Notes under the pieces: model-generated
What the model saw: the letters and a program-made list of their open reading frames with translations, nothing else
The model's database searches: none
Told to the model about the DNA's origin: nothing
Made by a program: the position numbers and the translations under genes
Shown here: positions 22,769 through 62,341 of the stretch, one piece after another
Numbering within the stretch: the first letter of the stretch is position 1
Layout: each line of letters starts with the position of its first letter
Assembly: GCF_026619415.1 (NCBI RefSeq)
Contig: NZ_JAOVZR010000001.1
Location: 372,001 to 436,000 of the forward strand
Reading direction: 5' to 3'
Source of the DNA: Hoeflea algicola
GTDB lineage: Bacteria; Pseudomonadota; Alphaproteobacteria; Rhizobiales; Rhizobiaceae
Length of the DNA stretch: 64,000 nt

Positions 22769-24143
22769 ATGACCGCGCGGATCCTGGTGGTTGACGACAT
22801 TCCGGCCAATGTGAAGCTTCTCGAGGCTCGGCTGCTGGCTGAATATTTCGAGGTGCTGACGGCCGAAGACGGCATGACCGCGCTGTCGATCTGCGACCAG
22901 ACCCAGGTTGATCTCATCCTGCTCGACATCATGATGCCGGGCATCGACGGATTTGAAGTCTGCGAGCGGCTCAAGCAGAACCCGCGCACAGCCCATATCC
23001 CGGTGGTCATGGTCACCGCACTCGACCAACCGGCTGACCGGGTCCGCGGCCTCAAGGCCGGCGCCGACGATTTCCTGACCAAACCGGTCAATGACCTGCA
23101 ACTGATGACCCGAGTGAAGAGCCTGGTTCGCTTCAAGGCGCTCTCTGACGAGCTTCGGCTGCGTGCCGAGACTGCGCGCGACCTTGGCCTCGAGGGGCTG
23201 CTGGCGCCGCACCAGGGGCATCTGGAAGAGCCCGGACTTGTGTTACTGGTCGAAGGCCGCGCCAACACCCAGGACCGCATGACCCGGGCGCTGAAGGGCA
23301 TCGCAGATGTCACCGCCATCGGCGATCCGCAGGCGGCGCTGTTCGAGGCGGCCGAAAAACCTTATGAGCTGGTAATCGTTTCCTCGGCGCTCGAAGATTA
23401 CGATCCGCTGAGGCTGTGCTCGCAACTGCGTTCGCTCGATCGCACGCGCTTCATCCCGATGCTGATGGTCGCCGAGCAGGGCGAAGAGGACCTGATGATC
23501 CGGGCGCTCGATCTCGGCGTCAATGATTATCTGCTGCGGCCGCTCGATCCCAACGAACTAGTTGCCCGCAGCGTCACCCAGATCCGCCGCATGCGCTACA
23601 CCGGCCAACTGCGTTCGAGCCTGACGCAATCGGTCGAGTTTGCCGTCACCGATCTCGCTGACCGGGCTCAACAATCGCCGTTATCTCGATACCCATCTGG
23701 CGGCGCTGGTCGAGCGCTCCAACCGACGTGGCCGTCCGTTGTCAGTGCTGATTACCGATATCGATCATTTCAAGGCTATCAACGATGTTCATGGCCATGA
23801 AGGCGGCGATGACGTGCTGCGCGAATTTTCCCGCCGGTTGCGCGGCGCGGTGCGCGGTGCCGATCTTGCCTGCCGTTATGGCGGCGAGGAATTTGTCGTG
23901 GTGATGCCCGACACGACGCCTGATGTCGCCTCACAGGTTGCCGAACGGCTGCGCAATGCCATCGCTTCGGCGCCATTCAAGGTTTCAGCCACCGGTGCCA
24001 TGGCGGCGGTGACCACCTCGGTCGGCATCGCCACCTTGGAGAACGCCGGCGAGGGTGTCGATGCGCTGCTTCGCCGCGCCGACCAGGCACTGTACCGGGC
24101 CAAGAACGCCGGCCGCAACCGCGTCGTCTGTGAAGCCGCCTGA
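22769..24143 (+). pseudogene. pleD: Diguanylate cyclase response regulator PleD, frameshifted
   Basis: With one base removed near 23651-23657 the frame runs from 22769 to 24143 and encodes 457 residues, the usual PleD length. Order: receiver domain 1 with phospho-acceptor D53 (LILLDIMMPGIDGFEVCERL), receiver-like domain 2 (about 155-290), then GGDEF domain (TGLNNRRYLDTHL...). The active site is GGEEF and the inhibitory RxxD site is RGAD, five residues before it. As written, the first frame stops at 23800 after unrelated residues, and the GGDEF part lies in the next frame. It makes c-di-GMP for the swarmer-to-stalked switch, downstream of DivJ/PleC. The break sits at GATCTCG; see findings. A sequence error is likely. 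Confidence 0.9.
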
Positions 24144-24576
24144 TTCTGCGTTGCGGGTGGAGCGGGTTGATGCTCGTGTTGTCGGCGAAACCCCTTAAAT
24201 CCTAGGCATTTCATGATTAAACCACATCAAAGCGGACCTATCGGCATAAACAGCTGATCGGCGCGTCGCGTAGTGCCGTTTTCGCACAGTCACTATTTCG
24301 TGCAGCATCAGCAGTTTTACGCGCTGTAATTAACCACAACCGTGGACAGAGCTGGTCGTTGGTTAAGAAACTATTGATTTTTGGGCGATTTTGTACAAAA
24401 GTTCATAGTGAAGACGGTGTCCAAGTGTTGTCACATCAAACTGATACAGTCTTACTGAATACGAAAACCCCATGATGTTCAGGTCCGCCGCATCTCCTGG
24501 GTCGTGGGGCGGCCGATCGAAATTAAGTGCATAGTGGCATCCTCGTTCCACGCCTTTGTTTTGGTCGGCCCTTGAT
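24144..24576. other. AT-richer non-coding region between pleD and rpmG
   Basis: About 430 bases, visibly lower in G+C than the flanks (for example 24290-24480), with no credible gene. It starts after pleD and ends at the rpmG terminator. Nothing here has a clear tRNA or known-RNA fold, but the composition and the isolated position could fit a small RNA. Confidence 0.4.
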
Positions 24577-24614
24577 ACAAAAAACCCGCCTCTGGAAAGA
24601 GGCGGGTTTTTTGC
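24577..24614 (-). terminator. Bidirectional rho-independent terminator after rpmG
   Basis: A run of A and CCCGCCTCT (24579-24593), loop GGAA, AGAGGCGGG and a T-run (24598-24612): a 15-bp symmetric stem that can stop transcripts from both sides. It lies 45 bases past the rpmG stop. Confidence 0.9.
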
Positions 24615-24658
24615 TTTGATCGATACTGTTCCGGTGAGTCGCCGGGGCAGGGAGCCTG

Positions 24659-24826
24659 TTACTTGATCTTGGCTTCCTTGAATTCGACGTGCTTCTTGGC
24701 AATCGGGTCGTACTTGGTCTTCACCATCTTGTCGGTAAAGGTACGGCTGTTCTTCTTTGTTACGTAGAAAAAGCCCGTGTCGGCGGTCGACTGGAGCTTG
24801 ATCTTGATGGTGGTCGCCTTGGCCAT
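24659..24826 (-). CDS. rpmG: 50S ribosomal protein L33
   Basis: 55 residues, too short for a default gene-length cutoff but unmistakable: [20 protein letters not shown], then [15 protein letters not shown] and [18 protein letters not shown]. This is the zinc-free L33 form (no CxxC pairs). It is a small protein of the 50S subunit near the E site. The gene is separated from the MFS gene (24919-26109) by 92 bases and from its own terminator by 45 bases; it lies on the same strand as the upstream NUDIX/MFS block but probably has its own promoter. Confidence 0.96.
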
Positions 24827-24918
24827 GGTGTTTTGCCTTCTTCAAAAATGAAGCCGCGGGCAGCACACAAGGCTCCACGGCGAAACTTGCGCGGAAACTA
24901 CAAAAGCCCGGCGGAAAG

Positions 24919-26109
24919 TCAAGTCCGTTTTGGGCTAAGCAGCAGCCGAAACAGCGTTAGCACCACATACAGGCCGAAAAAGAACGCCAACGCCCAGGCA
25001 AAACCGTGAGTCCCGCTCAGATCCATGGCCACGCCGATGGTCTGCGGTCCCAGCAACATGCCCATTGCATAGCAGAACACGAAGGCGGCATTGGCCGAGG
25101 CCAGATCGGCGCCATGCAGCTTGTCGCCCAGATGCGCCAGCCCGACGGTGTAGAGCCCGGCAACGCTGCCACCCCAGAACAACAGGATGACGGCTGTCAG
25201 CAGCCAGTTGTGGATCAGGAAGGGCAGCGCCAGCGAGCCGACCAGCCCGATCACAGCAAATAACGAAAGCAGCCGACGGCGATCGCCAATCCGGTCGGCG
25301 ACCAGTCCCACCGGGATCTGGAACAAGACGTTGCCCAGGCCGATCATGGTCAACAGCAGTGCGCCTTGCGATTCGGTGAAGCCGGTGCGGTTGGCGTAGA
25401 CCGGAAACAGCGAAAGACCGCCTGATTCGACCGCGCCGAACACGAACACTGCAGCCGTTGCCGTGGGAACCAGGAAAATATAGCGCATGAACGGAATGTC
25501 GGTTGAGGGGCCGATTACCGGGTTTTCCTTGCGCGCCATCAGGATTGGGATCGCAGCCATCAGGATGATGCCGGCGCCGATTGCAAACGGCATCACGCCT
25601 TCAGAGCCGACCACCGAAAAGATCAGCGGTCCCGCGGCAAATCCCAGGGAAAGAACCGTGGCGTAAATTCCCAGCACCAGGCCGCGTCGCGATGGTGGGG
25701 CAGCCGTGTTGATCCAGAATTCCGAGAGTACGAACAGCACCGTGATCGCGCCGTGAAAGATGATTCGTAGCGGAAACCACATCCACAGCGCTTCTGCATA
25801 AAAGAAGCCCAGTGCACTGGCCGCCGCCGCGATGATGGCCAGCACCATGGTGTTGACCACGGTCAGTCGCTGGGCAATCCAGGTGGTTACCGGCGCCGCC
25901 GCCATCGCCGCCACACCAGCCATGGCCGAATTGAGCCCGATCATTGTCGAGGAGACGCCGCGTTTTTCCAGAATGACTGAAAGCAGCGGTAGCCCAAGAC
26001 CTATAGCAATGCCGACAGCGGTAATGGCTGCAACGGCAGCTATCAGCGCTGGCCAGTGGATCTCCTCGCGGATCGCCGGTGTGCCTGAGGAAGAATGATC
26101 CATCTGCAA
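24919..26109 (-). CDS. Major facilitator superfamily transporter
   Basis: 396 residues with about twelve hydrophobic segments. The N-terminal half opens WPALIAAVAAITAVGIAIGLGLPLLSVILEKRGVSSTMIGLNSAMAG and the second half begins near FMRYIFLVPTATAAVFVFGAVESGGLSLF. VADRIGDRRRLL is the typical loop between helices in the C-terminal half. It is close in plan to YcaD-like MFS proteins of rhizobia. Inner-membrane exporter or uptake permease of unknown substrate. It is last in the pyrB-to-MFS gene order and lies 12 bases after the NUDIX gene, so it is co-transcribed. Confidence 0.9.
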   Translation of the reverse strand: MQMDHSSSGTPAIREEIHWPALIAAVAAITAVGIAIGLGLPLLSVILEKRGVSSTMIGLNSAMAGVAAMAAAPVTTWIAQRLTVVNTMVLAIIAAAASALGFFYAEALWMWFPLRIIFHGAITVLFVLSEFWINTAAPPSRRGLVLGIYATVLSLGFAAGPLIFSVVGSEGVMPFAIGAGIILMAAIPILMARKENPVIGPSTDIPFMRYIFLVPTATAAVFVFGAVESGGLSLFPVYANRTGFTESQGALLLTMIGLGNVLFQIPVGLVADRIGDRRRLLSLFAVIGLVGSLALPFLIHNWLLTAVILLFWGGSVAGLYTVGLAHLGDKLHGADLASANAAFVFCYAMGMLLGPQTIGVAMDLSGTHGFAWALAFFFGLYVVLTLFRLLLSPKRT

Positions 26110-26121
26110 AAACCTGGTGGG

Positions 26122-26838
26122 TTAAATCAACTCGCGAACGAATCGTCCATTGCGGAAATAGTAGAAAGAAACTGCCCTGCCAAATGGTAAAGACGGATCT
26201 TCCTTCATCGCCTGGCAAAGATCGGTCAGAATTACCTTGGTAATACGGGGCAGTGGGTACTCCTCGTGGTGGTCGATCGCCACCCAACTCAGATCATGCA
26301 ATTCGTCGCTGTCGCTGAGCGCAGACAGATCCGCACTTGTCTCGTCAGTAAAACAGGCAAAAAATCGAGTATCGTAGCGGCGTGGCATGCCCGGCGGCGT
26401 GATCGCCCGGGCGAGAAACCGGAATTTCGAGACATCGGGACGCAGCAACCCGGCATATTCGGCCGGCGTCAGCGACAGATGCGCTTCCTCGAGCATTTCC
26501 CGGGCGGCGGCAACGGCCAGGCCGCGGGCCGCCGTCGGCCTGAAGCGGGAATTGGTCCGCTCCATCAGCTTGCCCTCCACCTCCTCGTGCAGCGGCCAGG
26601 CAAACGGGGTCCTGTTGTCGCCCGGATCCCGGCGCCCGCCGGGAAACACATAGAGATCGGGCATGAAGGCATGCTTCTTGCCGCGTTTTCCCACCAGCAC
26701 GCGCGGGGTTGATTGGCTGCGGTCAATCAGCAGCAACGATGCAGCATCGCGCGGCGTGCGCGGTGCATGCCGTATTTCGTTTCGGTGTTTAAGGTCTTCC
26801 GTCAGCAGGTCGGCCTTGTGCGCACCTTTGTCGCTCAC
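26122..26838 (-). CDS. NUDIX hydrolase
   Basis: 238 residues. The NUDIX helix is visible as GLAVAAAREMLEEAHLSL: the REMLEE core with Glu ligands is intact, while the last Gly of the canonical box (REUxEExGU) is Ala, which is common in this rhizobial subfamily. HAFMPDLYVFPGGRRDPGDNRTPFAWP is the N-terminal 'vFPGG' motif. It likely hydrolyses a nucleoside diphosphate derivative such as a CoA or dinucleotide. It overlaps the upstream DUF983 gene by 4 bases (ATGA) and runs 12 bases before the MFS gene, so it is in the middle of a coupled set. Confidence 0.9.
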   Translation of the reverse strand: MSDKGAHKADLLTEDLKHRNEIRHAPRTPRDAASLLLIDRSQSTPRVLVGKRGKKHAFMPDLYVFPGGRRDPGDNRTPFAWPLHEEVEGKLMERTNSRFRPTAARGLAVAAAREMLEEAHLSLTPAEYAGLLRPDVSKFRFLARAITPPGMPRRYDTRFFACFTDETSADLSALSDSDELHDLSWVAIDHHEEYPLPRITKVILTDLCQAMKEDPSLPFGRAVSFYYFRNGRFVRELI

Positions 26839-27287
26839 CGTGCATCCTCGTGGGCCACCGGCGCCAACAGCACCTCATCGTCCTCGCCGCCAAAGCCATG
26901 CATGCGCAAAGCCCATTGCAGGCCGATGACCCCGCCCTTGAGCGGGGGCAGCAGCGACAGCGACAGGATTATCGTGATCGGGATCCAGATCATCAGGTGC
27001 TGCCAGCTTTCGAGCACCAGCCAACTATCGGTTGCCATGAAACCGGCGACAACGATGTGACCGACAATGAAGATCGCGAGATAGGGCGGAAAATCATCGG
27101 CGCGGTGGTGAAACATCTCTTCGCCGCAGACCGCACATGCATCCACCGGCTTGAGATAGGCCCTGAACAACTTGCCTTCGCCGCAATGCGGGCAACGCCC
27201 GAGCAGGCCGCGCTTGATGGAAAGCCAGGTGTTACGCGGCTCATCTTCGGAAACACTCTCGGTGGTGGGGGCGCCAAATTCGAGCAA
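26835..27287 (-). CDS. DUF983 family membrane protein with zinc ribbon
   Basis: 150 residues. Two Cys pairs, RCPHCGEGKLF and ACAVCGEEMF, make a zinc-ribbon-like head; two hydrophobic helices follow (PYLAIFIVGHIVVAGFMAT and LMIWIPITIILSLSLLPPLKG), with the conserved KGGVIGLQWALRMHGFGG end. This is the DUF983 plan, found next to NUDIX and rnr genes in rhizobia. Function unknown; a membrane-bound zinc protein is the most one can say. Overlaps the NUDIX gene by 4 bases. Confidence 0.9.
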   Translation of the reverse strand: MLEFGAPTTESVSEDEPRNTWLSIKRGLLGRCPHCGEGKLFRAYLKPVDACAVCGEEMFHHRADDFPPYLAIFIVGHIVVAGFMATDSWLVLESWQHLMIWIPITIILSLSLLPPLKGGVIGLQWALRMHGFGGEDDEVLLAPVAHEDAR

Positions 27288-27344
27288 TGTTCATCTCCTT
27301 TTTAAAGCGGACGCGTCTTCACGCCGCCAATCGTGGCAATTCCG

Positions 27345-29705
27345 TCAACGGCGACCACGTGGCGGTCTCGTGCCGGGTTTTTTGGGTCCACCGCGCCGGG
27401 CACGTCCGGATTTGTGAAACGAGCGCGTGCCGGTCGGCATCTTCTGGCCTTCGCTGAGCATCTCGAATCGCAGCGAGCCGGCAAGTGGTATCACTTCAAC
27501 CACCTTGATCTCGACACTGTCGCCAAGGCGGTAACCCAGACCGGTCTTCTCGCCGGTCAACGCCTGATGAGCCTCGTCATAGTGGTAATAGTCAAGCCGC
27601 AAGGTCGAAACCGGGACGAAACCATCTGCGCCAAATTGAGGCAGGCTGATAAACAGACCTGATTTTGTCACGCCGGAGATGCGCCCGTCAAAAGCTTCGC
27701 CGATCCGGCTGGCCAGATGGTGTGCGACAAGGCGGTCGACCGTGTCGCGTTCGGCCTTCATGGCCCGGCGTTCGGTGGTGGAGATCTCGGCGGCGATGGT
27801 TTCCAGCGCCGCTTCCTCGTCCGCAGTGATGCCGCCCTCGCCAAGCCCCAGCGCCCCCACCAGAGCGCGGTGGACGATCAGGTCGGCATAACGCCGTATC
27901 GGTGAGGTGAAATGCGTGTATTTCATCAGGTTGAGGCCGAAATGGCCGATGTTCTCCGGCGAGTAGATTGCCTGGCTCTGGCTCCTGAGAACCATCTCGT
28001 TGACCATGATCTGATAGGGTTCGCCCGAGGCGCGGGCGAGAATGCCGTTGAACGAACTGGCCCTCACCGCTGCCCCACGTGCCAGCGATAGCCCAAGGGT
28101 GGTCAGGAATTCGCGCAAGACTTCCTGCTTGGCCAGCGAAGGCTGGTCGTGCACCCGAAAGATCAGCGGCTGGCGTCGTTGCTCCAGCGTTTCGGCAGCC
28201 GCCACATTGGCCTGGATCATGCACTCTTCGATCAGCTTGTGCGCATCCAGACGTTCGGGCACCACAACCTTGTCGACCTTGCCTTCCGGTGCCAGCAGGA
28301 TCTTGCGTTCCGGCATGTCGAGTTCAAGCGGCTGGCGCCGTTCGCGTCCGCGCTTGAGCACCGCGTAGGCATCCCACAGCGGCTTCAGTACAGGCTCGAG
28401 CAACGGGCCGCTGGCATCGTCCGGTTTACCGTTGATCGCTGCCTGGGCCTGCTGGTAGGAGAGTTTGGCGGCACTTTTGATCATCACCCGGTGGAATTTG
28501 TGACCGATCTTGCGGCCTTCACTGGAAAACCGCATCCGCACCGCAAGCGCCGGCCGGTCCTCCTTTTCGCGCAGCGAACAAAGGTCGTTGGAGATCCGTT
28601 CGGGCAGCATCGGCACCACCCGGTCGGGGAAATAGGCCGAATTACCGCGTTTGAGCGCTTCTCGGTCGAGCGCCGAGCCGGCGCGCACATACCAGGAGAC
28701 ATCGGCAATCGCCACGGTAACGATGACGCCGCCGGGATTGTCGGGCGAGGGGTCCTGCTCGGCATAGACCGCGTCGTCATGATCCTTGGCGTCGCTGGGG
28801 TCGATGGTGATCAGCGGGATGTGCCGCCAGTCTTCGCGGCCCGACAGCGGCGCCGGCTTGGCCTCATCCGCAGCCTTTAACACCTCTGCGGGAAAAACAT
28901 GCGGAATGCCGTGGGCGTGAATGGCGATCATCGAGATCGCCTTTTCGCTTTCGACCGAGCCCAGCACTGTCAGCACTTTCGCGCGCGGCAGCCCGACGCG
29001 GCCGGCGCGAAGGGTTTCGACCTCGACGAGATCGCCATCCTTGGCCTCGCCGGCGGCATCCTGATCGATCAGATATTCCTCGCCGCGCCGCTCGATCGGC
29101 ATCAGCCGTCCGCCACCGCCCGGTGTTTCCTTGAAAACGCCCAGAACAGCGCCGCCGCGGCGCTCGAGAATTTTCATGATGCGTGCGGTATAAGCCGTGG
29201 ACTTGCCATGCGGGGCCGCAAATATCCGTGCCAGCACAAGATCGCCAATCGCAGCGGCTGTCGACGGCGAGCGGGATTTGCCGCGACCGCTATCACGTCC
29301 GGCATTGCTCTGGCGCACGGTGACAACCGGCGCAGCACCGTGCTCTTCCAGCCATTCGGCCGGACGGGCGATCAGGTCTCCGCCGCTACCGCGCATGGTG
29401 ATTTCCAGCACGGTGACGGCGGGAAGCGTACCCGGACGCCTGAGCATCTTGCGGTCGCGTTCAAGCAGCCCTTCATCTTCAAGTTCGCGCAGCACATCCT
29501 TGAGCTCGGTTCTGGTCTCACCCTTGAGCCCGAACGCCTTGGCGATGTCGCGCTTGGTGGCGCGGTCTGGGTTCTCGCTCAAAAACCGCAGGATCGTCTC
29601 GCGGTCGGGCATGTCGCCACGTCGAAACGCCACCGGCTTTTGGGCCGTTGTGTCGTCTTCGCCGCCTGGCTTGCCGGATTCGGTGGTGCGCGGAGGGGTG
29701 GTCAA
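27345..29705 (-). CDS. rnr: Ribonuclease R
   Basis: 786 residues. A winged-helix start (PDRETILRFLSENPDRATKRDIAKAFGL), cold-shock-like domains, the RNB catalytic domain with TIDPSDAKDHDDAVYAEQD (metal-binding Asp), NSAYFPDRVVPMLPERISNDLCSL and YTHFTSPIRRYADLIVHRAL, then an S1 domain (GRISGVTKSGLFISLPQFGADGFVPV) and a Lys/Arg-rich tail. It degrades structured RNA 3'-5' in the cytosol. The start shown is TTG at 29705, two bases after the topA stop; an ATG at about residue 33 is the alternative. The proximity to topA supports translational coupling. Confidence 0.94.
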   Translation of the reverse strand: MTTPPRTTESGKPGGEDDTTAQKPVAFRRGDMPDRETILRFLSENPDRATKRDIAKAFGLKGETRTELKDVLRELEDEGLLERDRKMLRRPGTLPAVTVLEITMRGSGGDLIARPAEWLEEHGAAPVVTVRQSNAGRDSGRGKSRSPSTAAAIGDLVLARIFAAPHGKSTAYTARIMKILERRGGAVLGVFKETPGGGGRLMPIERRGEEYLIDQDAAGEAKDGDLVEVETLRAGRVGLPRAKVLTVLGSVESEKAISMIAIHAHGIPHVFPAEVLKAADEAKPAPLSGREDWRHIPLITIDPSDAKDHDDAVYAEQDPSPDNPGGVIVTVAIADVSWYVRAGSALDREALKRGNSAYFPDRVVPMLPERISNDLCSLREKEDRPALAVRMRFSSEGRKIGHKFHRVMIKSAAKLSYQQAQAAINGKPDDASGPLLEPVLKPLWDAYAVLKRGRERRQPLELDMPERKILLAPEGKVDKVVVPERLDAHKLIEECMIQANVAAAETLEQRRQPLIFRVHDQPSLAKQEVLREFLTTLGLSLARGAAVRASSFNGILARASGEPYQIMVNEMVLRSQSQAIYSPENIGHFGLNLMKYTHFTSPIRRYADLIVHRALVGALGLGEGGITADEEAALETIAAEISTTERRAMKAERDTVDRLVAHHLASRIGEAFDGRISGVTKSGLFISLPQFGADGFVPVSTLRLDYYHYDEAHQALTGEKTGLGYRLGDSVEIKVVEVIPLAGSLRFEMLSEGQKMPTGTRSFHKSGRARRGGPKKPGTRPPRGRR

Positions 29706-34509: not shown

Positions 34510-35796
34510 TCAGGCACTGTGAACTGTGGCACCTGCAACCAGTGTTTGCAACACCTTGCCGGTGAACCGGGCATCCTCAAAGGCACTGTTCTTGGACCTG
34601 GAAACGATCTCGTCCTTGCTCAGCACCCATGGGTATTCAGGGTCGATCAGGGCGATGTCGGCGCGCGCGCCCACCTTCAGCGTCCCGGCGTCGAGACCGA
34701 GGATCTGCGCCGGACGGGTCGACAGCGCATCAATCAGCCGCATCAGCGAAACGTCGCCGGAATGGTAAAGCCTGAGCGCTGCCGCCAGCAGTGTTTCCAG
34801 CCCGATCGCGCCGTTCTCTGCATCGGCAAATGGCAGCCGCTTGGTGTCGACATCCTGCGGGTCATGCGCCGAGACGATGATGTCGATGGTCTCGTCGGCA
34901 ATCGCGGTTACCATGGCGCGGCGGTCGTCTTCGGTCCTGAGCGGCGGCGATAGCCGGAAGAAGGTGCGGTATTCGCCGATATCGGTCTCGTTGAGGGTCA
35001 GGTGGTTGATGGAAATTCCTGCGGTGACCGGCATCCCGCGCGCCTTGGCGGCGCGGATCACGTCTGCGGATTCAGGTACCGAGATGCTCATCGCGTGGTA
35101 ACGCGCCTTCGTCAGCGCTGCCAGCCGCAGATCGCGCTCGAGCGGAATGATCTCGGCTTCGCGCGGAATTCCCGGCAGGCCCAGCCAATTGGCAAACAGG
35201 CCCTCGTTCATAACCCCGGTGGCGATCAGTTGCCGGTCCTGGGTGGCGACGGCCACCACGGCGCCGAAATCGCGCGCATAGGTCATCGCCCGGCGCATCA
35301 CTGCTGGATTGTCGACAGTGTGCCGGCCATTGCTGAGCATCACAGCGCCGGCTTCCAGCAACAGGCCGAATTCGGTCATCTCCTCGCCCCTGAGCCCCTT
35401 GGTCAGGGCCGCGGCCGGATAGACCCGGATAACGGCTTCGTCGCGCGCCAGTCTTTGCACGTAATCCACCAGCGCCACATCGTCGATTACCGGATCGGTA
35501 TCCGGCATCATGACGATAGATGTGACGCCGCCGCAGGCTGCCGCGCGGCTTGCCGAGGCAATGGTCTCGCGGTGCTCGGCACCGGGTTCGCCGATATGCA
35601 CGCAGGCGTCGACCAGGCCGGGAACCGCAATCAGCCCGGAACAATCCTCGATCTCGGTGCCGGCTGGCACCGCAAAACCTGTCGCCGCAGCGCCAATGGC
35701 GGCAATCCTGCCGTCGATGATGACGATATCGCCGGTTTCGTCCATCTGCGTTGACGGATCGATGATCCGCACATTGGCGAGTACCCGCGGCTTCAT
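34510..35796 (-). CDS. pyrC: Dihydroorotase-like protein, probably non-catalytic (PyrC'/PyrX type)
   Basis: 428 residues, amidohydrolase fold of the class I dihydroorotase type. Several metal and substrate ligands are missing: the HxH of catalytic enzymes (DLHVHLREPG) reads [10 protein letters not shown], keeping one His; the HCED region reads [11 protein letters not shown]; the Asp of the ATDHAPH motif reads SAHDPQ. In Pseudomonas such an inactive homologue supports ATCase assembly. The start overlaps the pyrB stop by 4 bases (ATGA), as in that arrangement. A scaffold role for PyrB is therefore my inference, with a catalytic DHOase expected elsewhere. The gene symbol follows common rhizobial annotation. 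Confidence 0.85.
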
Positions 35797-36724
35797 CGCG
35801 CCAACTCCCCTTCGAGCATCAGTGTTTCCATCACTGCCATGCGCACCGCCACGCCCATCTCGACCTGTTGCTCGATCACGCTTTGCGGCCCGTCGGCAAT
35901 GTCGGAGGCGATCTCGACACCGCGATTCATCGGGCCGGGATGCATCACCAGCGCGTCTTCTCTGGCCAGTTTCAGTTTTTCGGCATCAAGCCCGAAATAG
36001 CGGAAATACTCGCGCACCGATGGCACGAAGGAACCGGCCATGCGCTCGCGCTGCAGCCGCAGCATCATCACCACATCGGCGTCCTTGAGCCCGTCTTCCA
36101 TCCGGTGGAATACTTCGACGCCCATGTCGGCGATACCGGCGGGCAGCAGCGTCGAAGGGGCGATCACCCGCACCCGCGCGCCCATTGCATTGAGTAACAG
36201 GATGTTGGAGCGGGCAACGCGCGAATGCAGCACGTCGCCGCAGATGGCAACGATCAACCGCCCGACCTTGCCCTTGGCGCGGCGAATGGTCAGCGCGTCC
36301 AGAAGCGCCTGGGTCGGGTGCTCATGGGCGCCGTCACCGGCATTGATCACCGGGCAGCCGACCTTTTGCGCAAGCAGCGCCACGGCGCCGGCCGAGGAAT
36401 GACGCACCACCAGCACGTCGGGCCGCATGGCGTTGAGCGTCATCGCCGTATCGACCAGTGTTTCGCCCTTCTTGACACTGGAATTGGCCACCGACATGTT
36501 CATCACGTCCGCACCCAGCCGTTTGCCGGCGAGTTCGAACGAAGCCTGGGTCCGCGTCGAGTTTTCGAAAAACAGGTTGATCTGGGTCAGCCCGCGCAGG
36601 GTCGAGGTCTTTTTTCGCGTTGTCGCGAAAGTTTGACGGCCTCGTCCGAGCGGTCGAGCAAATAATGGATGTCCTGCTCCGAGAGCTGCATGATACCCAG
36701 CAGGTGACGGTGCGGAAATGACAT
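35793..36724 (-). pseudogene. pyrB: Aspartate carbamoyltransferase catalytic subunit, frameshifted
   Basis: With one A restored in the run at 36610-36615 (written as T on the plus strand), the gene runs from ATG 36724 ([38 protein letters not shown]...) to 35793 and encodes 310 residues, a full ATCase. Then follow [20 protein letters not shown], the carbamoyl-phosphate loop [33 protein letters not shown], and [35 protein letters not shown]. As written it stops after about 50 codons at CAGG-TGA. It makes carbamoyl-aspartate, the first committed step in pyrimidine synthesis. Upstream gene order is pyrB-pyrC-plsY-dprA. The lost base in a homopolymer suggests a sequence error. Confidence 0.9.
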
Positions 36725-36850: not shown

Positions 36851-38497
36851 ATGAGCCCGACCCAACCTTCAGGCCACCAGGCCGACAATCAGAGCCCGCT
36901 GTTTTCGGGGCACAACGCGTTTCGTTCCGATCCCTTGCTCAAGGATATCGCCAGCGACATGCCGCGTGCGCTGCGCGACGATTTCGAGACCACCGGCAAG
37001 TTCGTGGCCTCTGCTGAAGCCCAGGATCTCGCCCGCATCGCCAATCGCGCGGTGCCGGAATTGAGAACCCATGACGGATTCGGCAACCGCATCGACCAGG
37101 TGGATTTCCATCCCAGCTGGCATGCGCTGATGCGCCGTGGCGTCTCGATCGGACTGCAGGGCTCGGTCTGGGAGGGAAAGCGCGAGGAAGCAGGCTTTGC
37201 CCACCAGGCCCGCGCCATCCGCTTCTATCTTACCGCCGGGATGGAATGCGGCCACCTCTGCCCGCTGACCATGACCAACGCCTCCATCGCCGCCATCATG
37301 GCCTCGCCGCGCATTGAAAAAAGCTGGGCGCCGCTGGTGGTCTCGCGCCGTTATGATTCCAGCAACCGCCCGGCGATGCAGAAATCCGGGGTCACCATCG
37401 GCATGGGCATGACCGAAAAGCAGGGCGGCACCGATGTCCGCGCCAATGAAAGTGTAGCCGTACGCGCCGGCGAGGGCGTCTATCGGCTCGAAGGCCACAA
37501 ATGGTTCATGTCAGCGCCGATGTCGGACGCATTCGTGATGCTGGCCAAGACCGGCGATGCGCTGAGCTGTTTTCTGGTGCCGCGCATTCTCGAAGACGGC
37601 AACCTCAACGGCCTGCGGCTGCAACGGCTCAAGGACAAGCTCGGTAACCGCTCGAACGCCTCTTCGGAAGTCGAGTTTTCTGACACCTACGGGTTCCTGC
37701 TCGGCGGCGAAGGCGACGGCATCCGCACCATTCTCGACATGGTCACCCTGACCAGGCTCGATTGCGCGCTTGCTTCCGCCGGCATGATGCGCGCGAGCCT
37801 CGCCGAGGCGGTGCATCACTGCCGCCACCGCCGGGTGTTTGGCGAGTTGCTGATCGATCAGCCGCTGATGATCCGGGTTCTGGCAGATCTGGCGCTCGAT
37901 GTCGCCGCCGCCACGGCGCTGTCGCTGCGGCTTGCCCGCTCCTTTGATAACGCCCGCGACAAGCCAGCCGAAGCCGCCATTGCCCGGTTGATGACGCCGG
38001 TGATCAAGTACTGGGTCTGCAAGATCGCGCCATCTATCATCTATGAGGTGATGGAGTGCATGGGCGGCAACGGCTATGTCGAGGAGCGTGCCGCTGCGCG
38101 TCATTACCGCGAAGCGCCGGTCAACGCGATCTGGGAAGGCTCGGGCAATGTCATGGCGCTCGATGTGCTCAGGGTTCTGACTCGCGGCCGCGAACTTTGC
38201 GATGTGGCGCTGCAAAGCATCAACGACGATCTTGGCGCAGCCGGCCCCCGCACGGTCGACGTGCTCAGGGCCTGCATGGCGGTTGCCGAACGCGACGAGG
38301 GCGCAAGCCGGATGCTGACCGAGCAACTTGCGTTGGCTGCTGCTGCCGCCGAGCTCACCCGTCTTGGCGCCGGCCATGTTGCCGAAGCCTTTGTCGAAAC
38401 CCGGTTGGGCGGCGCCTGGCGCTCGACCTATGGCATGCTTGACGCCCGATTTGATGCGCGCCAGATCGTCGACATGCTGTATCCGCCGGCGAGCTGA
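36851..38497 (+). CDS. aidB: AidB-like acyl-CoA dehydrogenase
   Basis: 548 residues from ATG 36851 (MSPTQPSGHQADNQSPLFSGHNAFRSDPLLKDIA), chosen because GAGGTG lies just upstream and the preceding open stretch is not conserved. The N-terminal segment (about 20-60) is the additional domain seen in AidB; then the acyl-CoA dehydrogenase fold: GMGMTEKQGGTDVR (flavin-binding), WFMSAPMSDAFVMLA, TRLDCALASAGMMR, LMIRVLADLALDVAAATAL and MGGNGYVEERAAARHYREAPVNAIWEGSGNV. It is a flavoprotein linked to protection from alkylating agents in E. coli; the natural substrate is unclear. Divergent from pyrB. Confidence 0.9.
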   Translation: MSPTQPSGHQADNQSPLFSGHNAFRSDPLLKDIASDMPRALRDDFETTGKFVASAEAQDLARIANRAVPELRTHDGFGNRIDQVDFHPSWHALMRRGVSIGLQGSVWEGKREEAGFAHQARAIRFYLTAGMECGHLCPLTMTNASIAAIMASPRIEKSWAPLVVSRRYDSSNRPAMQKSGVTIGMGMTEKQGGTDVRANESVAVRAGEGVYRLEGHKWFMSAPMSDAFVMLAKTGDALSCFLVPRILEDGNLNGLRLQRLKDKLGNRSNASSEVEFSDTYGFLLGGEGDGIRTILDMVTLTRLDCALASAGMMRASLAEAVHHCRHRRVFGELLIDQPLMIRVLADLALDVAAATALSLRLARSFDNARDKPAEAAIARLMTPVIKYWVCKIAPSIIYEVMECMGGNGYVEERAAARHYREAPVNAIWEGSGNVMALDVLRVLTRGRELCDVALQSINDDLGAAGPRTVDVLRACMAVAERDEGASRMLTEQLALAAAAAELTRLGAGHVAEAFVETRLGGAWRSTYGMLDARFDARQIVDMLYPPAS

Positions 38498-47879: not shown

Positions 47880-49383
47880 ATGAGCCTCGTCGATACCCGC
47901 ACTCCCGATCCGAAACGACTGATTCCCGGCGCGACCGGCGACTGGGAGATCATCATCGGTCTCGAGGTCCACGCCCAGGTGACCAGCAACTCGAAATTGT
48001 TCTCGGGCGCTTCGACCCATTTCGGCAATGCCGCCAATTCCAATGTCAGCCTGGTCGACGCGGCCATGCCCGGCATGCTGCCGGTGATCAACCAGGAATG
48101 CGTGGCCCAGGCCGTGCGCACCGGGCTGGGGCTCAAGGCCCAGATCAACAACCGCTCGGTATTCGACCGCAAGAATTATTTCTATCCCGACCTGCCGCAG
48201 GGCTACCAGATTTCGCAGTTCAAGGACCCGATCGTCGGCGAGGGCACTATCATCATTTCCGTGGGTCCCGATCGTAAGGGCAATTTCGAGGATATCGAGA
48301 TTGGCATCGAACGGCTGCACCTGGAGCAGGATGCAGGCAAGTCGATGCACGACCAGCATCCGACCATGTCTTATGTCGATCTCAACCGCTCCGGCGTGGC
48401 GCTGATGGAAATCGTCTCCAAGCCCGACATGCGTTCGGCCGACGAGGCCAAAGCCTATGTCACCAAGCTGCGCTCGATCCTGCGCTATCTCGGGACCTGC
48501 GACGGCAACATGGATGAAGGCTCGATGCGCGCCGACGTCAACGTATCCGTCCGCAAGCCCGGTGGCGAGTTCGGCACCCGCTGCGAGATCAAGAACGTCA
48601 ACTCGATCTCGCTTTGTTGGCCAGTCGATCGACTATGAGGCCCGTCGCCAGATCGCCATCATCGAGGATGGCGGCACCATTGATCAGGAAACGCGTCTGT
48701 TTGATCCGGCCAAGGGCGAAACCCGCTCGATGCGCTCGAAGGAAGACGCGCATGATTACCGCTATTTCCCCGATCCCGACCTGCTGCCGCTTGAGTTCGA
48801 TGATGCTTTTGTCGAAGCGCTGAAGGCCGATCTGCCGGAACTGCCCGATGACAAGAAGGCCCGGCTTGTCGCCGACATGGGGCTGAGCGTCTATGACGCC
48901 TCGATCCTGGTTTCGGAAAAGGCGATTGCCGATTATTACGAATTGCTGGCTTCGGGTCGTGACGGCAAGACCGCCGCCAACTGGGTCATCAATGACTTGC
49001 TGGGCGCCTTGAACAAAGCCGGCAAAAGCATTGAAGAGACTCCGGTTTCTCCCGATCAGCTCGGAACTATTCTCGACCTGATCAAGGACGGCACCATCTC
49101 CGGCAAGATCGCCAAGGATCTGTTCGAGATCGTCTTCACTGAAGGCGGCAACCCGGCCGACATCGTCGAAGCCCGGGGCATGAAGCAGGTCACCGATACC
49201 GGCGCCATCGAAAAGGCGGTCGACGAAATCATCGCCGCCAACCCCGATCAGGTGGCCAAGGTCGCGGCCAAGCCGGCACTGGCCGGCTGGTTCGTCGGCC
49301 AGGTGATGAAGCTGACCGGCGGCAAGGCCAACCCCAAAGCGGTGCAGGATCTGGTCAAGGCCAAGCTCGGCATCGAAGACTGA
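47880..49383 (+). pseudogene. gatB: Aspartyl/glutamyl-tRNA amidotransferase subunit B, frameshifted
   Basis: With one base removed near 48605-48611 the frame gives 500 residues from ATG 47880 ([33 protein letters not shown]). Order: GatB core with [52 protein letters not shown], and after the break [37 protein letters not shown], then the YqeY-like tail ([16 protein letters not shown]). It phosphorylates and transamidates mischarged Glu-tRNA(Gln)/Asp-tRNA(Asn). As written it stops at 48636-48638 after SLCWPVDRL. Most rhizobia need gatB, so a sequence error or very recent mutation is likely. The break sits at GATCTCG; see findings. Confidence 0.92.
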
Positions 49384-56647: not shown

Positions 56648-56684
56648 ACCTCAGGTGCCCCGCGCCGCGGACCTGCCCGCGATC

Positions 56685-58046
56685 CTATTTACCGGCTTTG
56701 GCCGCAGCCTTGGCGGCAAGAAACTTTTCCAGCCAGTGAATGTCGTAGTCACCATTGGCGATGTCCGGATTGGCAAGAAGATCGCGAAACAGCGGCAGCG
56801 TGGTGTTGATGCCGTCGACCACAAATTCATCCAGCGCGCGCCTCAGCCGCATCATGCATTCGACCCGGGTGCGCCCGTGCACGATCAGCTTGCCGATCAG
56901 GCTGTCGTAATAGGGTGGGATCTTGTAACCCTGATAGACGCCTGAATCGACCCGTACGCCCAGGCCGCCGGGTGTGTGGTAATGGGTGATCGTTCCCGGC
57001 GACGGCACGAACGTGTCCGGATCCTCGGCGTTGATGCGGCATTCGATGGCATGGCCGTGGAAGCGAATGTCGCTCTGGGTGACGGACATGCCTGCGCCGG
57101 AAGCGACCCGGATCTGCTCGTTGACCAGGTCGATGCCGGTGATCGCCTCGGTCACCGGGTGTTCGACCTGCAGCCGCGTGTTCATTTCGATGAAATAGAA
57201 TTCCCCGTTTTCATAGAGAAACTCGATGGTGCCTGCGCCACGATATTTCAGCTTGCGCATCGCAGCGGCACAGATCTCGCCGATTTCCATGCGCTGGTCT
57301 TCGTTCAGCGAAGGCGAATTTGCTTCTTCCCAGACCTTCTGGTGGCGCCGCTGCAGCGAACAATCGCGTTCGCCCAGATGAATCGCGTTGCCTTCGCCAT
57401 CGCCAAGAACCTGAATTTCGATATGACGCGGCTTGCCCAGGTATTTTTCCATGTACACGGCGTCATTGCCGAAGTTTGCCAGCGCTTCCGATCGGGCCGT
57501 CGACAGGGCTTCCGACAGCTCCTCGGCATTATGGGCCACTTTCATGCCCTTGCCGCCGCCGCCAGCTGTTGCCTTGATCAGCACCGGGTAACCGGTTTCC
57601 TCGGCAACCTTTATCGCCTGTTCTACGTCGAACACCTCGCCATCAGAGCCCGGCACGCAAGGGATGCCAAGCGACACAGCCGTTTTCTTGGCCGTGATCT
57701 TGTCTCCCATGAGGCGGATATGATCCGCAGTCGGGCCAATGAAGGTGATGCCGTGCGCATCGAGAATATCGGCGAATTTGGCGTTCTCCGACAAAAAGCC
57801 GTAGCCCGGGTGCACCGCATCGGCACCGGTGATCTCGCAGGCCGCGACAATCTGGTGGATATTGAGATAGCTGTCGCGCGAAGGCGGCGGCCCGATGCAC
57901 ACGCTTTCATCGGCCAGCCGTACATGCATGGCGTCCTGATCGGCCGTCGAATGCACAGCCACGGTCTGGATGCCCAGCTCCTTACATGCGCGCAGCACCC
58001 GCAGAGCGATTTCGCCACGGTTTGCGATGAGAACCTTGGAGAACAT
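56685..58046 (-). CDS. accC: Acetyl-CoA carboxylase, biotin carboxylase subunit
   Basis: 453 residues from ATG 58046 (MFSKVLIANRGEIALRVLRACKELGIQTVAVHSTADQDAMHVRLADE); a GTG 12 bases earlier is an alternative. ATP-grasp features: KTAVSLGIPCVPG, VLIKATAGGGGKGMKVAHN, LGKPRHIEIQVLGDGEGNAIHLGERDCSLQRRHQKVWEEANS, EFYFIEMNTRLQVEHPVTEAITGIDLV, GHAIECRINAEDPDTFVPSPGTI. It carboxylates biotin on AccB. The accB stop is 12 bases before its start, so an operon. Confidence 0.97.
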   Translation of the reverse strand: MFSKVLIANRGEIALRVLRACKELGIQTVAVHSTADQDAMHVRLADESVCIGPPPSRDSYLNIHQIVAACEITGADAVHPGYGFLSENAKFADILDAHGITFIGPTADHIRLMGDKITAKKTAVSLGIPCVPGSDGEVFDVEQAIKVAEETGYPVLIKATAGGGGKGMKVAHNAEELSEALSTARSEALANFGNDAVYMEKYLGKPRHIEIQVLGDGEGNAIHLGERDCSLQRRHQKVWEEANSPSLNEDQRMEIGEICAAAMRKLKYRGAGTIEFLYENGEFYFIEMNTRLQVEHPVTEAITGIDLVNEQIRVASGAGMSVTQSDIRFHGHAIECRINAEDPDTFVPSPGTITHYHTPGGLGVRVDSGVYQGYKIPPYYDSLIGKLIVHGRTRVECMMRLRRALDEFVVDGINTTLPLFRDLLANPDIANGDYDIHWLEKFLAAKAAAKAGK

Positions 58047-58058
58047 GGGCTGACTCAC

Positions 58059-58517
58059 TTATTCGATCACGATCATCGGTTCGGCGAATTCCACCGGATC
58101 GCCATCGGCAACCAGAATCTGGATGACCTTGCCGGCGCGCGGTGAGGGAATCTGGTTCATGGTCTTCATCGCTTCGATGATCAGGATGGTCTGGCCTTCC
58201 TTGACCATCTGGCCAACCTCGACGAACGGCTTGGAGCCGGGCGCCGGCGACAGGTAGACCGAGCCGACCATCGGCGCCGTGATGGCGTTGGCTGATGGAG
58301 TCGCCGCAACCGGCGCCGCTTCAACAGGGGCCTGCTGAGGGGCGGTAACCTGCGGCTGGGCAATTGGAGCATGAATCGTCTGAGCCGTCCCGGCGCGGCT
58401 GACGCGCACCCGCAAGTCGTCCTGCTCGATTTCGATTTCGGTCAGATCGGTCTCGTTGAGAATATTGGCCAGATCCCGGATCAGATCCTGGTCGATCGAC
58501 GGTTTTCTTGTTGCCAT
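58059..58517 (-). CDS. accB: Acetyl-CoA carboxylase, biotin carboxyl carrier protein
   Basis: 152 residues: an N-terminal helix (IRDLANILNETDLTEIEIEQDDLRVRVSRAG), a Pro/Ala/Gln-rich linker (about 55-78), then the biotinyl domain MVGSVYLSPAPGSKPFVEVGQMVKEGQTILIIEAMKTMNQIPSPRAGKVIQILVADGDPVEFAEPMIVI. Biotin attaches to K118 in EAMKTMN. With AccC it makes the first half of acetyl-CoA carboxylase. The aroQ gene that often precedes accB in alphaproteobacteria is not between it and the DsbA-like gene here. Confidence 0.97.
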   Translation of the reverse strand: MATRKPSIDQDLIRDLANILNETDLTEIEIEQDDLRVRVSRAGTAQTIHAPIAQPQVTAPQQAPVEAAPVAATPSANAITAPMVGSVYLSPAPGSKPFVEVGQMVKEGQTILIIEAMKTMNQIPSPRAGKVIQILVADGDPVEFAEPMIVIE

Positions 58518-58783
58518 CGGACATTGCCTCTATTGTTGGTGCCGTGGACGGCGGCTTCAGCCGTCTCGTTGTTTGTTCGTCCCTTTACAGCCCCGTGCCG
58601 TCTGCTGACAAGCCCGCCAAGGGATCTGCGGCCGCGAAAATGGTTCCGATCCTGCAGCCAGCGTCGAGCCGCGCGGCCCCAGTCATACACCTTGACTCCA
58701 AGCCGGGGGAAGGCTTTTGACCCGCCCTCCGGATTGTCCACAAGCGATTGCGGGGCATTGCCTTGTGCAGGATAGGTTTCTGA

Positions 58784-59548
58784 TCAGCAGACGGTGCTTT
58801 TGCAGGACCGCAGATTGGCGATCTTGTCAAGCAACGGCTCTGCGCCCACGGCGCCGAAAACCGCTTCGTCGCCAAGGATGAAGGACGGTGTGCCGGAAAT
58901 GCCCAGCGCATCGGCGAGCTGGTACGATTGCCGGATCGACTGCTCGATTTCCGGGTCGTCCATGCCGGCCCGCAGCGTTGCCTCGTCGACCCCGAGACCC
59001 GCCGCCACATCAATCGCTTGGGCTTCAGTTGCCCGCACGTCGCCGCCTAGCAGTTTCAGGTGAAACGCCTCGTATTGCTCAGGCGCAATCTTGCGAAACG
59101 CCATGCTGACCCGGTGCGCTGCCACTGAATCCGGTCCCAGGATCGGGAATTCCTTGAGCACGAAGCGGACATTGTCATCCTGTTCGATGATGGTGACCAT
59201 GTCTTGCATGGCGCGCTTGCAGAAACCGCAATTGTAATCGAAGAATTCGACCACGGTCACGTCGCCATTCGGGTTGCCAAGCGAGATGTCCTCGGCTGCG
59301 TTGAAGATCGCGTCGGTGTTGCCGGTGATCGCCGCCTGCGCAATATTGCGGCTTTCGGCTTCCTTTTTCAGGGCCAGAGCCTGCTGCACCTCTTCGAAGA
59401 TTTCCGGATTGGCCAGCAGATAGTCGCGTACGATTTCGCCGATTTCCTGTTTTTCGGCATCGTCGAACGCAGCAGCCGGAAACGGAACGGCAGAAACGGT
59501 GCCAATCAGCAGCGCTGCCATCAGGGGGATGCGTTTGCGAAATGCCAT
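58784..59548 (-). CDS. DsbA-family thiol-disulfide oxidoreductase
   Basis: 254 residues. Signal peptide (MAFRKRIPLMAALLIGTVSAVPFPAAAF), then a helix-rich head (EIGEIVRDYLLANPEIFEEVQQAL), the thioredoxin-fold DsbA core VVEFFDYNCGFCKRAMQDM with active-site C107-x-x-C110, and the cis-Pro loop GISGTPSFILGDEAVFG. The C-terminus adds CKSTVC, an extra Cys pair. It acts in the periplasm, as an oxidase or isomerase; the 'D-yC-fC' motif is of the type seen in SCO-/DsbA-like rhizobial proteins. It lies 52 bases after the metalloprotease gene on the same strand, so it may be co-transcribed. Confidence 0.9.
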   Translation of the reverse strand: MAFRKRIPLMAALLIGTVSAVPFPAAAFDDAEKQEIGEIVRDYLLANPEIFEEVQQALALKKEAESRNIAQAAITGNTDAIFNAAEDISLGNPNGDVTVVEFFDYNCGFCKRAMQDMVTIIEQDDNVRFVLKEFPILGPDSVAAHRVSMAFRKIAPEQYEAFHLKLLGGDVRATEAQAIDVAAGLGVDEATLRAGMDDPEIEQSIRQSYQLADALGISGTPSFILGDEAVFGAVGAEPLLDKIANLRSCKSTVC

Positions 59549-59599
59549 GTCGGGTTTCCTCTTGTCAGTTCTAGCGGAGCGCTTTCTTGGAAAGCAGTT

Positions 59600-61012
59600 C
59601 TATTTTCCGATGGTTAAGATGTCATTGGCGCGAACCGCGCCCGGCGATCCTTTGGCAAGCTTTTGCAGTGCGCGGGCGGCAAACACCTTTGCGTCACGGG
59701 TGTTGCCGGCGCGAAAATTACCTTCGGCCAGCACCAGTTCGGCGTTGCCGACATCTCCGGACTGGCCATAGGCTTGCGACAGGTTCCTGTAGGCGGTGAA
59801 ATTGTCCGGCTCGCTCTGGATTGATGCCCTCAGTTCCTCGATGGCGCGTTTGACGTTACCGGCCTTGCCCGACGCGACCAGTGCAAAACCGAGCCGCGCC
59901 CGGATCAGCGCGGAACCGCTTCGATCCAGCTTGGTCGCTGTGCTCAGTGCCTTGACCGCTTCGTCATTCCTGCGCAGTTTGATCAGCACTTCGCCTCGGA
60001 ATTCGTGAAAATACGGGTTTTTCGGCTGTTCCTTGATCAATCCATCCAGCTTTTTCAACGCTGCGGTCGAATTGCCAGCCAGGTCGGTGGCAATCGCATC
60101 GCCATAGCGTGCGGGCAGGGAACCACGATCCTTGGCAAACAACCGCGCAACCGCTTGCGCGCCGCCACTATAGGCGGCGATCTTGGCGCGCATCAGATTG
60201 TGCCTGGCGACCAGTCCGGCCGGATCCTTAGCGTCGAAATATTTGCTCTTGCGCGCCAGTTCCTCCAGCAACGCGATACGGTCGCGTGGCAGCGGGTGGC
60301 TGATCTGGTACTGGTCGACCTGCACGCCCGACAATGAAAGACTCTGCGAGAAGCGTTCGAACGTCGTCAGCATCCCGCGCATCGATTGCCCGGTGGCGTT
60401 GAGGTAACGGCCAGCGGCCTGATCGGCGTTCATTTCCTCAGAACGCCGATAGCTGAGCAGGCTGCGTTGGGCCAAACCCGGCGCCGCGGTAATCAGCGCG
60501 CCACCTGCCTGTGCACCACCCGAGTTGCCCGAGATGCTGCCCGCGGCAATAGCGCCGGCGCCAAGCAGGCTGCCAACGATGGCCATCGTCCGCGCCGCGG
60601 CGATCTGTTCACGCAGGCGCTGCTGGTGACCACCGGCCAAATGTCCGGCCTCGTGGGCGATCACGCCGATGATTTCGTTGGGGACGGAGGCTGCGGCCAG
60701 CGCGCCTGTATTGACGAAAATCCGTTGGCCATCAACGAAGGCGTTGAAGCTTGGATCATTGACCAGCACGATCTGCACCCGGCTCGATTTTAACCCTGCG
60801 GCCTTGAGCACCGGTTGGGCGTATTCCTTGAGAAGTGTTTCGATTTCAGCATCGCGCACCACCGCCACCCGTCCCTGGGCCAGCGCCGGCAATGCGAACG
60901 AACAGGCCAGAGCTGCTGTGATGACGCAGCGCGAGAGCCGTGCGGCGTATCCTTTTCCGAACCGTATGGTCGCGGCCGGTCGCTCGCTATTCAACGCTGT
61001 GTTGGTCTTCAT
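59600..61012 (-). CDS. Periplasmic M48 metalloprotease, BepA-like
   Basis: 470 residues. A signal peptide lies after an Arg-rich start (MKTNTALNSERPAATIRFGKGYAARLSRCVITAALACSFALPALAQ). The M48 zinc motif is HEAGH at 120-124 in VIAHEAGHLAGGHQQ, with the third ligand in RRSEEMNADQAAGRY. From about residue 260 it has TPR-like repeats (LDGLIKEQPKNPYFHEFRGEVLIKLRRNDEAVKALSTATKLDR...), the BepA/YfgC arrangement. In E. coli BepA assists or removes misassembled outer-membrane proteins such as LptD. The DsbA-like gene follows on the same strand, which suggests joint control of envelope folding. Confidence 0.9.
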   Translation of the reverse strand: MKTNTALNSERPAATIRFGKGYAARLSRCVITAALACSFALPALAQGRVAVVRDAEIETLLKEYAQPVLKAAGLKSSRVQIVLVNDPSFNAFVDGQRIFVNTGALAAASVPNEIIGVIAHEAGHLAGGHQQRLREQIAAARTMAIVGSLLGAGAIAAGSISGNSGGAQAGGALITAAPGLAQRSLLSYRRSEEMNADQAAGRYLNATGQSMRGMLTTFERFSQSLSLSGVQVDQYQISHPLPRDRIALLEELARKSKYFDAKDPAGLVARHNLMRAKIAAYSGGAQAVARLFAKDRGSLPARYGDAIATDLAGNSTAALKKLDGLIKEQPKNPYFHEFRGEVLIKLRRNDEAVKALSTATKLDRSGSALIRARLGFALVASGKAGNVKRAIEELRASIQSEPDNFTAYRNLSQAYGQSGDVGNAELVLAEGNFRAGNTRDAKVFAARALQKLAKGSPGAVRANDILTIGK

Positions 61013-61179
61013 GGATGCTGATGTCCTCGTCCTTCAGATGAAAGGTAGCGGCAAAGCCCGGAAAAGCAATTGCTCAAAACGGTTGGACTGGCTTGCTCTC
61101 GCACTTGTGATGGCCACGACAATCGGGCAATTGTGCGGCCAATCGTGATCGACGAAACGAACATCCCGGAGTTGATAAA

Positions 61180-62341
61180 GTGAATTTGCAGCGCAAATCA
61201 TCGGTAGAGCCGTTCCATGCCATGGATATACTCGCCGAAGCCACCCGTTTGAAGGCACTCGGCAACGATGTGATCTCGATGGCGGTGGGCCAGCCGGCGC
61301 ATCCGGCTCCGACCGCGGCGCGCGCGGCAGCGGCCAGAGCGCTCGAGGCTGGGCGTTTGGGTTATACTGACGCACTTGGGCTGAAAAGCCTGCGCAAGGC
61401 TATCGCCAGCCACTACCAAACCCGATACGGCATCGACCTTGATCCGCAACGGGTTGCAGTTACCACAGGCTCTTCTGCCGGGTTCAATCTGGCTTTCCTG
61501 CAATTGTTTAGCCCTGGCGATCGGGTGGCGATCACCCGACCGGGCTATCCCGCCTATCGCAACATCCTTGCAGCGCTCGGCCTCCAGGTAGTGGAAATCG
61601 CGGTCGGTGCCGAGACCGGGCACGCCTTGACGCCTGCGGCCATAGAGGCTGCGGAACGCGAGGCCGGCGGCCGCGTTGCCGGCGTGCTGATCGCCAGTCC
61701 GGCCAATCCAACCGGCGCAGTCCACGGGCGTGATGCCATCGCCACACTCGATGCCTGGTGCGCCGAGCGTGGCGTTGCCTTCATATCCGACGAGATCTAT
61801 CACGGCCTGACCTGGAGCGGTGAAGAGGCCACAGCGCTGTCGGTCTCGGACCGGGCGGTCGTCATCAATTCATTCTCGAAATATTTCTGCATGACCGGCT
61901 GGCGGATCGGCTGGATGGTTCTGCCCGAAGATCTGGTGCGGCCGGTGGAATGTCTGGCCCAGAGCCTTTACATCAGCCCGCCGGAGCTCTCCCAGATTGC
62001 CGCGGAAGCGGCGCTGACGGGAACTGCCGAGATGGACGCGGTGTGTGCCGGTTACCGGCAGAACCGGACGCTGCTGGCCGAACGCTTGCCGGCACTCGGA
62101 TTGCCGTTCGCAGCCCCCATGGACGGCGCGTTCTATGCATGGGTCGATGCTTCTGGTCACACCAATGATCTCGATGGCATTCGCGCATCAGATGCTGGCC
62201 GACATCCATGTCGCTGCGACCCCGGGACGTGACTTCGACCCGGTCGATGGCGCACGCTACATGCGATTTTCCTATGCCGGCAGCCAGGACGAGATGAAGA
62301 CCGCGCTCGATCGCCTGGAAGGTTGGCTGGGACGGCGTTGA
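61180..62341 (+). pseudogene. Pyridoxal-phosphate aminotransferase (aspartate aminotransferase fold), frameshifted
   Basis: With one base removed near 62167-62173 the frame encodes 386 residues from ATG 61180 (MNLQRKSSVEPFHAMDILAEATRLKALGNDVISMAVGQP). Fold type I features: GYTDALGLKSLRKAIASHYQTRYG, TTGSSAGFNLAFLQLF, PGYPAYRNIL, ASPANPTGAVHG, FISDEIYHGLTWSG, and the PLP lysine K in NSFSKYFCMTGWRIGWM, then after the break SMAFAHQMLADIHVAATPGRDFDPVDGARYMRFSYAGSQDEM. It is an AspC/YdcR-like transaminase of unknown amino donor. As written it stops at 62232 after unrelated residues. A terminator shared with rne follows. Confidence 0.88.

Follow-up and report, generated by a model that had tools for sequence, protein, structure and literature searches.

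One-base insertions that recur at GATCTCG and appear to break genes of Hoeflea algicola are most probably uncorrected, methylation-linked consensus errors of long-read (probably nanopore) sequencing that are absent from the organism itself, a reading to which we assign a probability of about 0.84. The insertions were seen in a window of 64,000 nucleotides, C1:372001-436000 of a genome of 5.18 Mb that is assembled in four contigs and 99% complete. An earlier note, made from the letters of this window, had described three genes broken by one extra base at the same heptamer and had named an error or a hotspot as the best explanation. Below, gene coordinates inside the window count from its first letter, and sites from wider scans are given as positions on contig C1 or on the corresponding stretch of a relative.

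All three copies of GATCTCG singled out by the earlier note are present on the plus strand, at 23651..23657, 48605..48611 and 62167..62173, and its claim of one extra base per gene was upheld by the proteins and DNA alignments of five congeners (G003, G011, G012, G014 and G001). The first copy lies in pleD, a diguanylate cyclase response regulator gene (about 22769-24143), where the frame passes from 2 to 3 at the heptamer relative to the open reading frames (ORFs) of all five congeners, and where the PleD model NF007135 is divided between two ORFs with a break at profile positions 295/296. The second lies in gatB (47880-49383), with a change from frame 3 to frame 1; the GatB family model is likewise split over two ORFs, and a single match in the genome agrees with the gene having been called single-copy. 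The third lies in the gene of a PLP-dependent aminotransferase (about 61180-62341), with a change from frame 1 to frame 2; its family models end early, and relatives read GAT-TC at this site. For each of these genes the net shift was +1 modulo 3 in 5/5 congeners, with raw figures of 4, 19 or -17 where the two-frame protein matches overlap, and DNA alignment with the five congeners gave one additional base. No repeat tract of the phase-variable simple-repeat kind was found around GATCTCG in the alignments of the window genes. The window also holds a fourth frameshift, missing from the earlier note and of homopolymer type. In a candidate pyrB, named from sequence (about 35793-36724, minus strand), the A-run 36610..36615 is one base short, which gives a net shift of -1 modulo 3 against four congeners with support from the DNA alignment, and the same frameshift was recovered in wider scans.

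GATCTCG is a frequent word in this DNA, with 46 copies in the window against 15 expected from shuffling. The genome holds 2870 copies, or 0.55 per kb, and 17 congeners range from 0.5 to 1.0 per kb; hence the H. algicola genome shows no enrichment. The heptamer covers about 0.4-0.5% of bases (0.40% in the compared stretch of H. algicola), so that by simple arithmetic three of three shifts would fall on it by chance with a probability of about 1e-7. GATTCG is rarer in the window than shuffles predict (28 observed versus 68). All 28 of these copies are intact, including the unbroken ones that had been pointed out at 37077, 51896 and 52525.

A protein-guided scan covered C1:1-836000 and compared it with 880 kb each of the congeners G011 and G003, of which about 500 kb and about 520 kb were alignable, using a third-codon-position filter. 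It returned 38 frameshift clusters, comprising 10 coding +1 shifts, 10 coding -1 or -2 shifts and 18 that were set aside. The latter, which include 244911, 422099 and 619706, were sorted by eye on alignments as gene ends, intergenic, tRNA or non-coding, or unclear; among them, 96328 and 508483 were excluded despite a net +1 because they appeared by eye to lie upstream of the start codon. The accepted coding +1 shifts, at 129888, 190434, 350448, 395653, 420609, 434170, 466567, 491603, 544827 and 613479, fell without exception (10/10) at GATCTCG or CGAGATC. Beyond the window, the genes affected, named via the congeners' intact copies, include rpoC, lpxB, a YceD-family gene, a nitrile hydratase accessory gene, a sugar-type ABC ATPase, an RND permease and a terminase. 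The 10 coding -1 or -2 shifts, at 113321, 206035, 206246, 215714, 356428, 408602, 539760, 685537, 688490 and 689313, all lie within or adjoin homopolymer runs 3 to 7 bases long as judged by eye, that at 113321 being a two-base loss next to a G-run rather than a plain change of run length. The assembly thus has a trait of long-read-only assemblies, homopolymer indels alongside motif errors, and the enrichment of indels at the motif elsewhere in the genome, which a base-calling error had implied, is borne out over 836 kb.

Isolated one-base extras were also counted without gene models, at a minimum of 17/24 flanking identities. H. algicola has 9/92 of its extras at GATCTCG when compared with G011 and 8/91 when compared with G003, and GATCTCG was the commonest 7-mer around its extras in both comparisons. 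The corresponding figures for G011 are 3/94 against H. algicola and 8/129 against G003, while G003 has none in the compared stretch (0/90 and 0/161). The 8/91 compare with about 0.36 expected (Poisson p about 6e-9). Extras of H. algicola that lie neither at GATCTCG nor in runs (73/92 and 77/91) we take for natural differences between species, and they were left unclassified. The sheer number of heptamers, 2870 in the genome, might let ordinary pseudogenes share one by chance. However, the heptamer occupies 0.4% of bases and yet hosts every one of the 10 accepted coding +1 shifts; together with the Poisson result, this leaves coincidence with practically no probability.

Relaxing the flank to 15/24 identities gave 11 GATCTCG insertion sites in H. 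algicola, the eleventh of which (685275) comes from DNA alignment alone, and eight in G011, obtained by DNA alignment with G003. At this flank or better, GATCTC before A, C or T showed no isolated extra base, and the restriction to a following G has a Fisher p of about 1.5e-6 with estimated denominators. Set against 208 intact coding sites, the 11 events correspond to an affected share of about 5% of coding GATTCG. The whole genome contains 1834 copies of GATTCG. Extrapolation from 11 events in about 0.5 Mb suggests about a hundred affected sites across the genome.

The occurrence of one heptamer in several genes could also reflect programmed frameshifting or some other recoding at a slippery sequence. 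We rejected this because the phase and strand of the motif vary: it occurs in four combinations of codon phase and strand, namely GAT-CTC-G, ATC-TCG, GGA-TCT-CG (in G011) and the reverse complement. The alignment confirmed the phases previously claimed for the window, GAT-CTC-G in two genes and ATC-TCG in one, and the dismissal of tRNA-level recoding that went with them was correct on grounds of both codon phase and motif strand. Orthologues, moreover, do without the extra base (5/5 for pleD, 5/5 for the aminotransferase and 17/17 for gatB), and we give recoding almost no credence.

A further alternative is that the insertions are real and arise in the living cells of the genus, where methylation or repair would make GATTCG an insertion hotspot. 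Two species of the genus are affected at different sites, as a hotspot would allow. Yet it would have destroyed rpoC, gatB and lpxB, it would have spared the compared stretch of G003, whose CcrM has 91% identity, and it leaves aside the homopolymer deletions, typical of long reads, that accompany the insertions. We consider a hotspot of this kind very improbable. Of the two explanations named in the earlier note, the base-calling error gained support, and a mutational hotspot sits poorly with a broken rpoC.

The likely source of GATCTCG was sought by scoring every one-base deletion in 19 events (11 in H. algicola and 8 in G011) against the proteins of relatives. Scores could be obtained for 17 of the 19; 595757 and 147867 of G011 have no open frame. 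GATTCG was the best or tied source in 17/17, with a small bias in that the reading frame was picked using the GATTCG version, compared with 9/17 for GATCCG and 8/17 for GACTCG. In no scorable event did GATCCG outscore GATTCG. As single sources, GATCCG and GACTCG were rejected, as they fit 9 and 8 of the 17 events, respectively. Relatives also carry the presumed original: G003 or H. algicola reads GATTCG opposite the G011 insertions at 136408, 429638, 474735, 552365, 595757 and 147867, and at 595757 the flanks are 24/24 identical to the orthologous site bearing GATTCG.

Some sites resemble GATCCG. The insertion at 466567 in H. algicola has a flank 24/24 identical to that of G003, which has GATCCG. 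At the gatB site all 17 fetched congeners have GATCCG, and of 80 named relatives 70 matched the site pattern, with 63 reading ATCCG, 6 ATTCG and 1 ATACG. Deletion of the second T, to give GATCCG, had been offered as another fit for pleD and gatB; it stands for gatB and is 4 BLOSUM points worse for pleD. Judged from these sequence comparisons, GATTCG is the only single source that fits every scorable event, and a minority of sites may derive from GATCCG, which does not contain GANTC. The proposal of a methylation-linked base-calling error at GATTCG is supported by the source fit, by the recurrence of the insertion on both strands and in several codon phases over 836 kb, by the involvement of rpoC and by the failure to find the insertion in a congener that likewise encodes CcrM.

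The codon phases of the 11 H. algicola events, assigned manually, are 5 Asp-Ser, 2 Ile-Arg, 4 Arg-Ile and 0 Glu-Ser. The Glu-Ser phase accounts for 69/208 intact coding GATTCG sites, and the chance of finding it in 0/11 events is about 0.012. Neighboring bases differ as well, with C after the motif in 8/11 events versus 84/315 intact sites and C before it in 8/11 versus 115/315. The compared stretch of H. algicola contains 315 GATTCG, 1080 GATCCG (over three times commoner) and 773 GATTC[ACT] (2.5 times GATTCG). A long-read artefact without any role for CcrM, in which sequence context would make GATTCG, and perhaps also GATCCG, a weak spot of the base caller or polisher, would accommodate the frequent C after the motif, the GATCCG of relatives at gatB and 466567, and the sparing of GATTC before A, C or T, which is also GANTC. 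Speaking against it are the GANTC errors published for agrobacteria (PMC12710330), which apparently belong to the family of H. algicola, and the fact that no scorable event requires GATCCG, though it is so much commoner than GATTCG. We regard such a context weakness as unlikely.

Our preferred reading, a methylation-linked error, depends on the methylases present. CcrM methylates the adenine of GANTC in alphaproteobacteria, and GATTCG contains GATTC, one case of GANTC. The H. algicola genome encodes an N6/N4 methylase of 377 aa with a RAMA domain, and the best NCBIfam match of this protein is CcrM, at 638 bits versus a curated cut-off of 830 for a Caulobacter-type model. A CcrM-type gene was present at no less than 91% identity in all six genomes queried (91% in G003). 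Since G003 has CcrM but an error-free stretch, methylation alone would be insufficient, and we infer that the two genomes must have been sequenced or polished differently. A Dam-type methylase was rejected as the cause, as a search of the H. algicola genome gave no PF02086 match. Besides CcrM, contigs C1 and C4 carry five further matches to PF01555, distributed over four places, and seven to PF00145, distributed over five. At C1:4425638-4426563 (L253, L256), two neighboring pieces match positions 1-130 and 121-201 of a single N6/N4 methylase model; they lie in different frames and may represent another broken gene. On contig C2 (L150, 10005-11383), an IS66 transposase is 98.4% identical to a copy on a Hoeflea plasmid, the best of 7 short partial plasmid matches.

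As a control, we examined the loci of 80 named relatives (1.51 Mb with 1160 GATCTCG and 687 GATTCG), using the ORFs of 16 of them as queries. Over about 637 kb of coding-like sequence in these loci, no frameshift cluster had the support of at least two query genomes. Applied to H. algicola, where they covered only about 18 kb, the same queries recovered the frameshifts of pyrB, gatB and the aminotransferase. They also recovered a -1 shift in the single-contig congener G001 (L129, near 15076), where the gene affected is well conserved. In G012 and G014, stretches of 80 kb each yielded no acceptable coding shift. A separate survey addressed the site with the DMDST motif, which we take to be that of serB, in 394 genomes of the family; G011, which bears an insertion at this site, was outside the sample. 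The intact GATTCG form was found in 116/394 genomes, and the pattern of the insertion form in 2/394, neither of them serB-like and both open in frame, leaving no true insertion form. The signature is therefore rare at any one site.

G011 has insertions of another type as well. Six of its extra bases (stretches L179, L180, L193, L195, L196 and L198) give CCAGTG or the complement, and in five of these cases the original seems to have been CCAGG; four of its coding +1 shifts away from GATCTCG are at CCAGG-type sites. G011 has one cytosine-5 methylase match. H. algicola has no CCAGG-type insertions, though cytosine-5 methylase matches occur at five places. A further coding +1 shift in G011 has its extra base adjoining GAATC (837077; own-aligned 652948 of the joined G011 stretch), and at least one more, at 231616 (own-aligned, joined stretch), is at no recognized motif.

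In weighing whether the insertions are artefactual, we counted in favor the two strands of the motif, the several codon phases, the involvement of rpoC and gatB, and the homopolymer deletions alongside. On the other side we counted the correct calling of most GATTCG, the sparing of GATTC[ACT], which is equally GANTC, the resemblance of gatB and 466567 to GATCCG, the absence of events in the Glu-Ser phase, the G011 coding +1 shifts that are partly off GATCTCG, the large share of isolated extras away from both GATCTCG and runs, and the CcrM match below its cut-off. The assembly would have been made from long reads, most likely Oxford Nanopore to judge from its errors, without short-read correction, and its consensus would give GATCTCG in place of GATTCG about one time in twenty. 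CcrM would methylate the adenine in GATTC, and this methylation would presumably contribute to the error. Our guess is that callers trained on Dam-methylated enterobacterial DNA, with G-m6A-T-C, could take methylated GATTC for GATC and insert a C. It is a tentative and rather doubtful extension that Dam-trained base callers leave the change from GATTCG to GATCTCG as a specific fingerprint on CcrM-methylated DNA, one that would mark uncorrected alphaproteobacterial nanopore assemblies and render many of their "pseudogenes" false, by extrapolation roughly a hundred in each affected genome.

Related errors have been published, and we describe them as far as the accessible text of each paper goes. 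GANTC is stated to be methylated in many alphaproteobacteria, and in agrobacteria assembly errors occur near GANTC, with indel errors producing apparent frameshifts (PMC12710330). In Brucella species, where CcrM was found, two potential errors were tied to GANTC and most errors were within coding sequence (PMC12392509). The type of motif in both reports is the one seen here, and the agrobacteria apparently belong to the same family. However, PMC12710330 ties motifs mainly to SNP errors, whereas the present case is one fixed insertion, from GATTCG to GATCTCG, only before G. Nanopore base callers make consensus errors at the Dcm motif CCAGG/CCTGG (PMC6591954), a modified motif absent from training data that leads to a recurrent error. 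The CCAGG-type extras of G011 are similar, whereas H. algicola has GATCTCG insertions without CCAGG-type ones. Motif errors in Listeria are lineage-specific, as here, mediated by modification and not removed by read consensus (PMC10687267), but the motifs are GCAGC and GCTGG and the errors were scored as mismatches. We found no description of the change from GATTCG to GATCTCG in the accessible text of the literature searched. The kind of error is already known, and its exact signature may be new.

The finding is practical and adds nothing on cell biology. Where frameshifts repeat at one heptamer, a comparison with the motifs that the organism methylates should come before any appeal to recoding. 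If our reading is right, no raw reads would be needed to search other alphaproteobacterial genomes for the fingerprint. For H. algicola, a sequencing error at this motif seems to have added one letter to the assembled sequence of many genes, an essential gene included. The apparent losses of pleD, gatB, pyrB, rpoC and lpxB would then be false, as would perhaps a hundred more by extrapolation.
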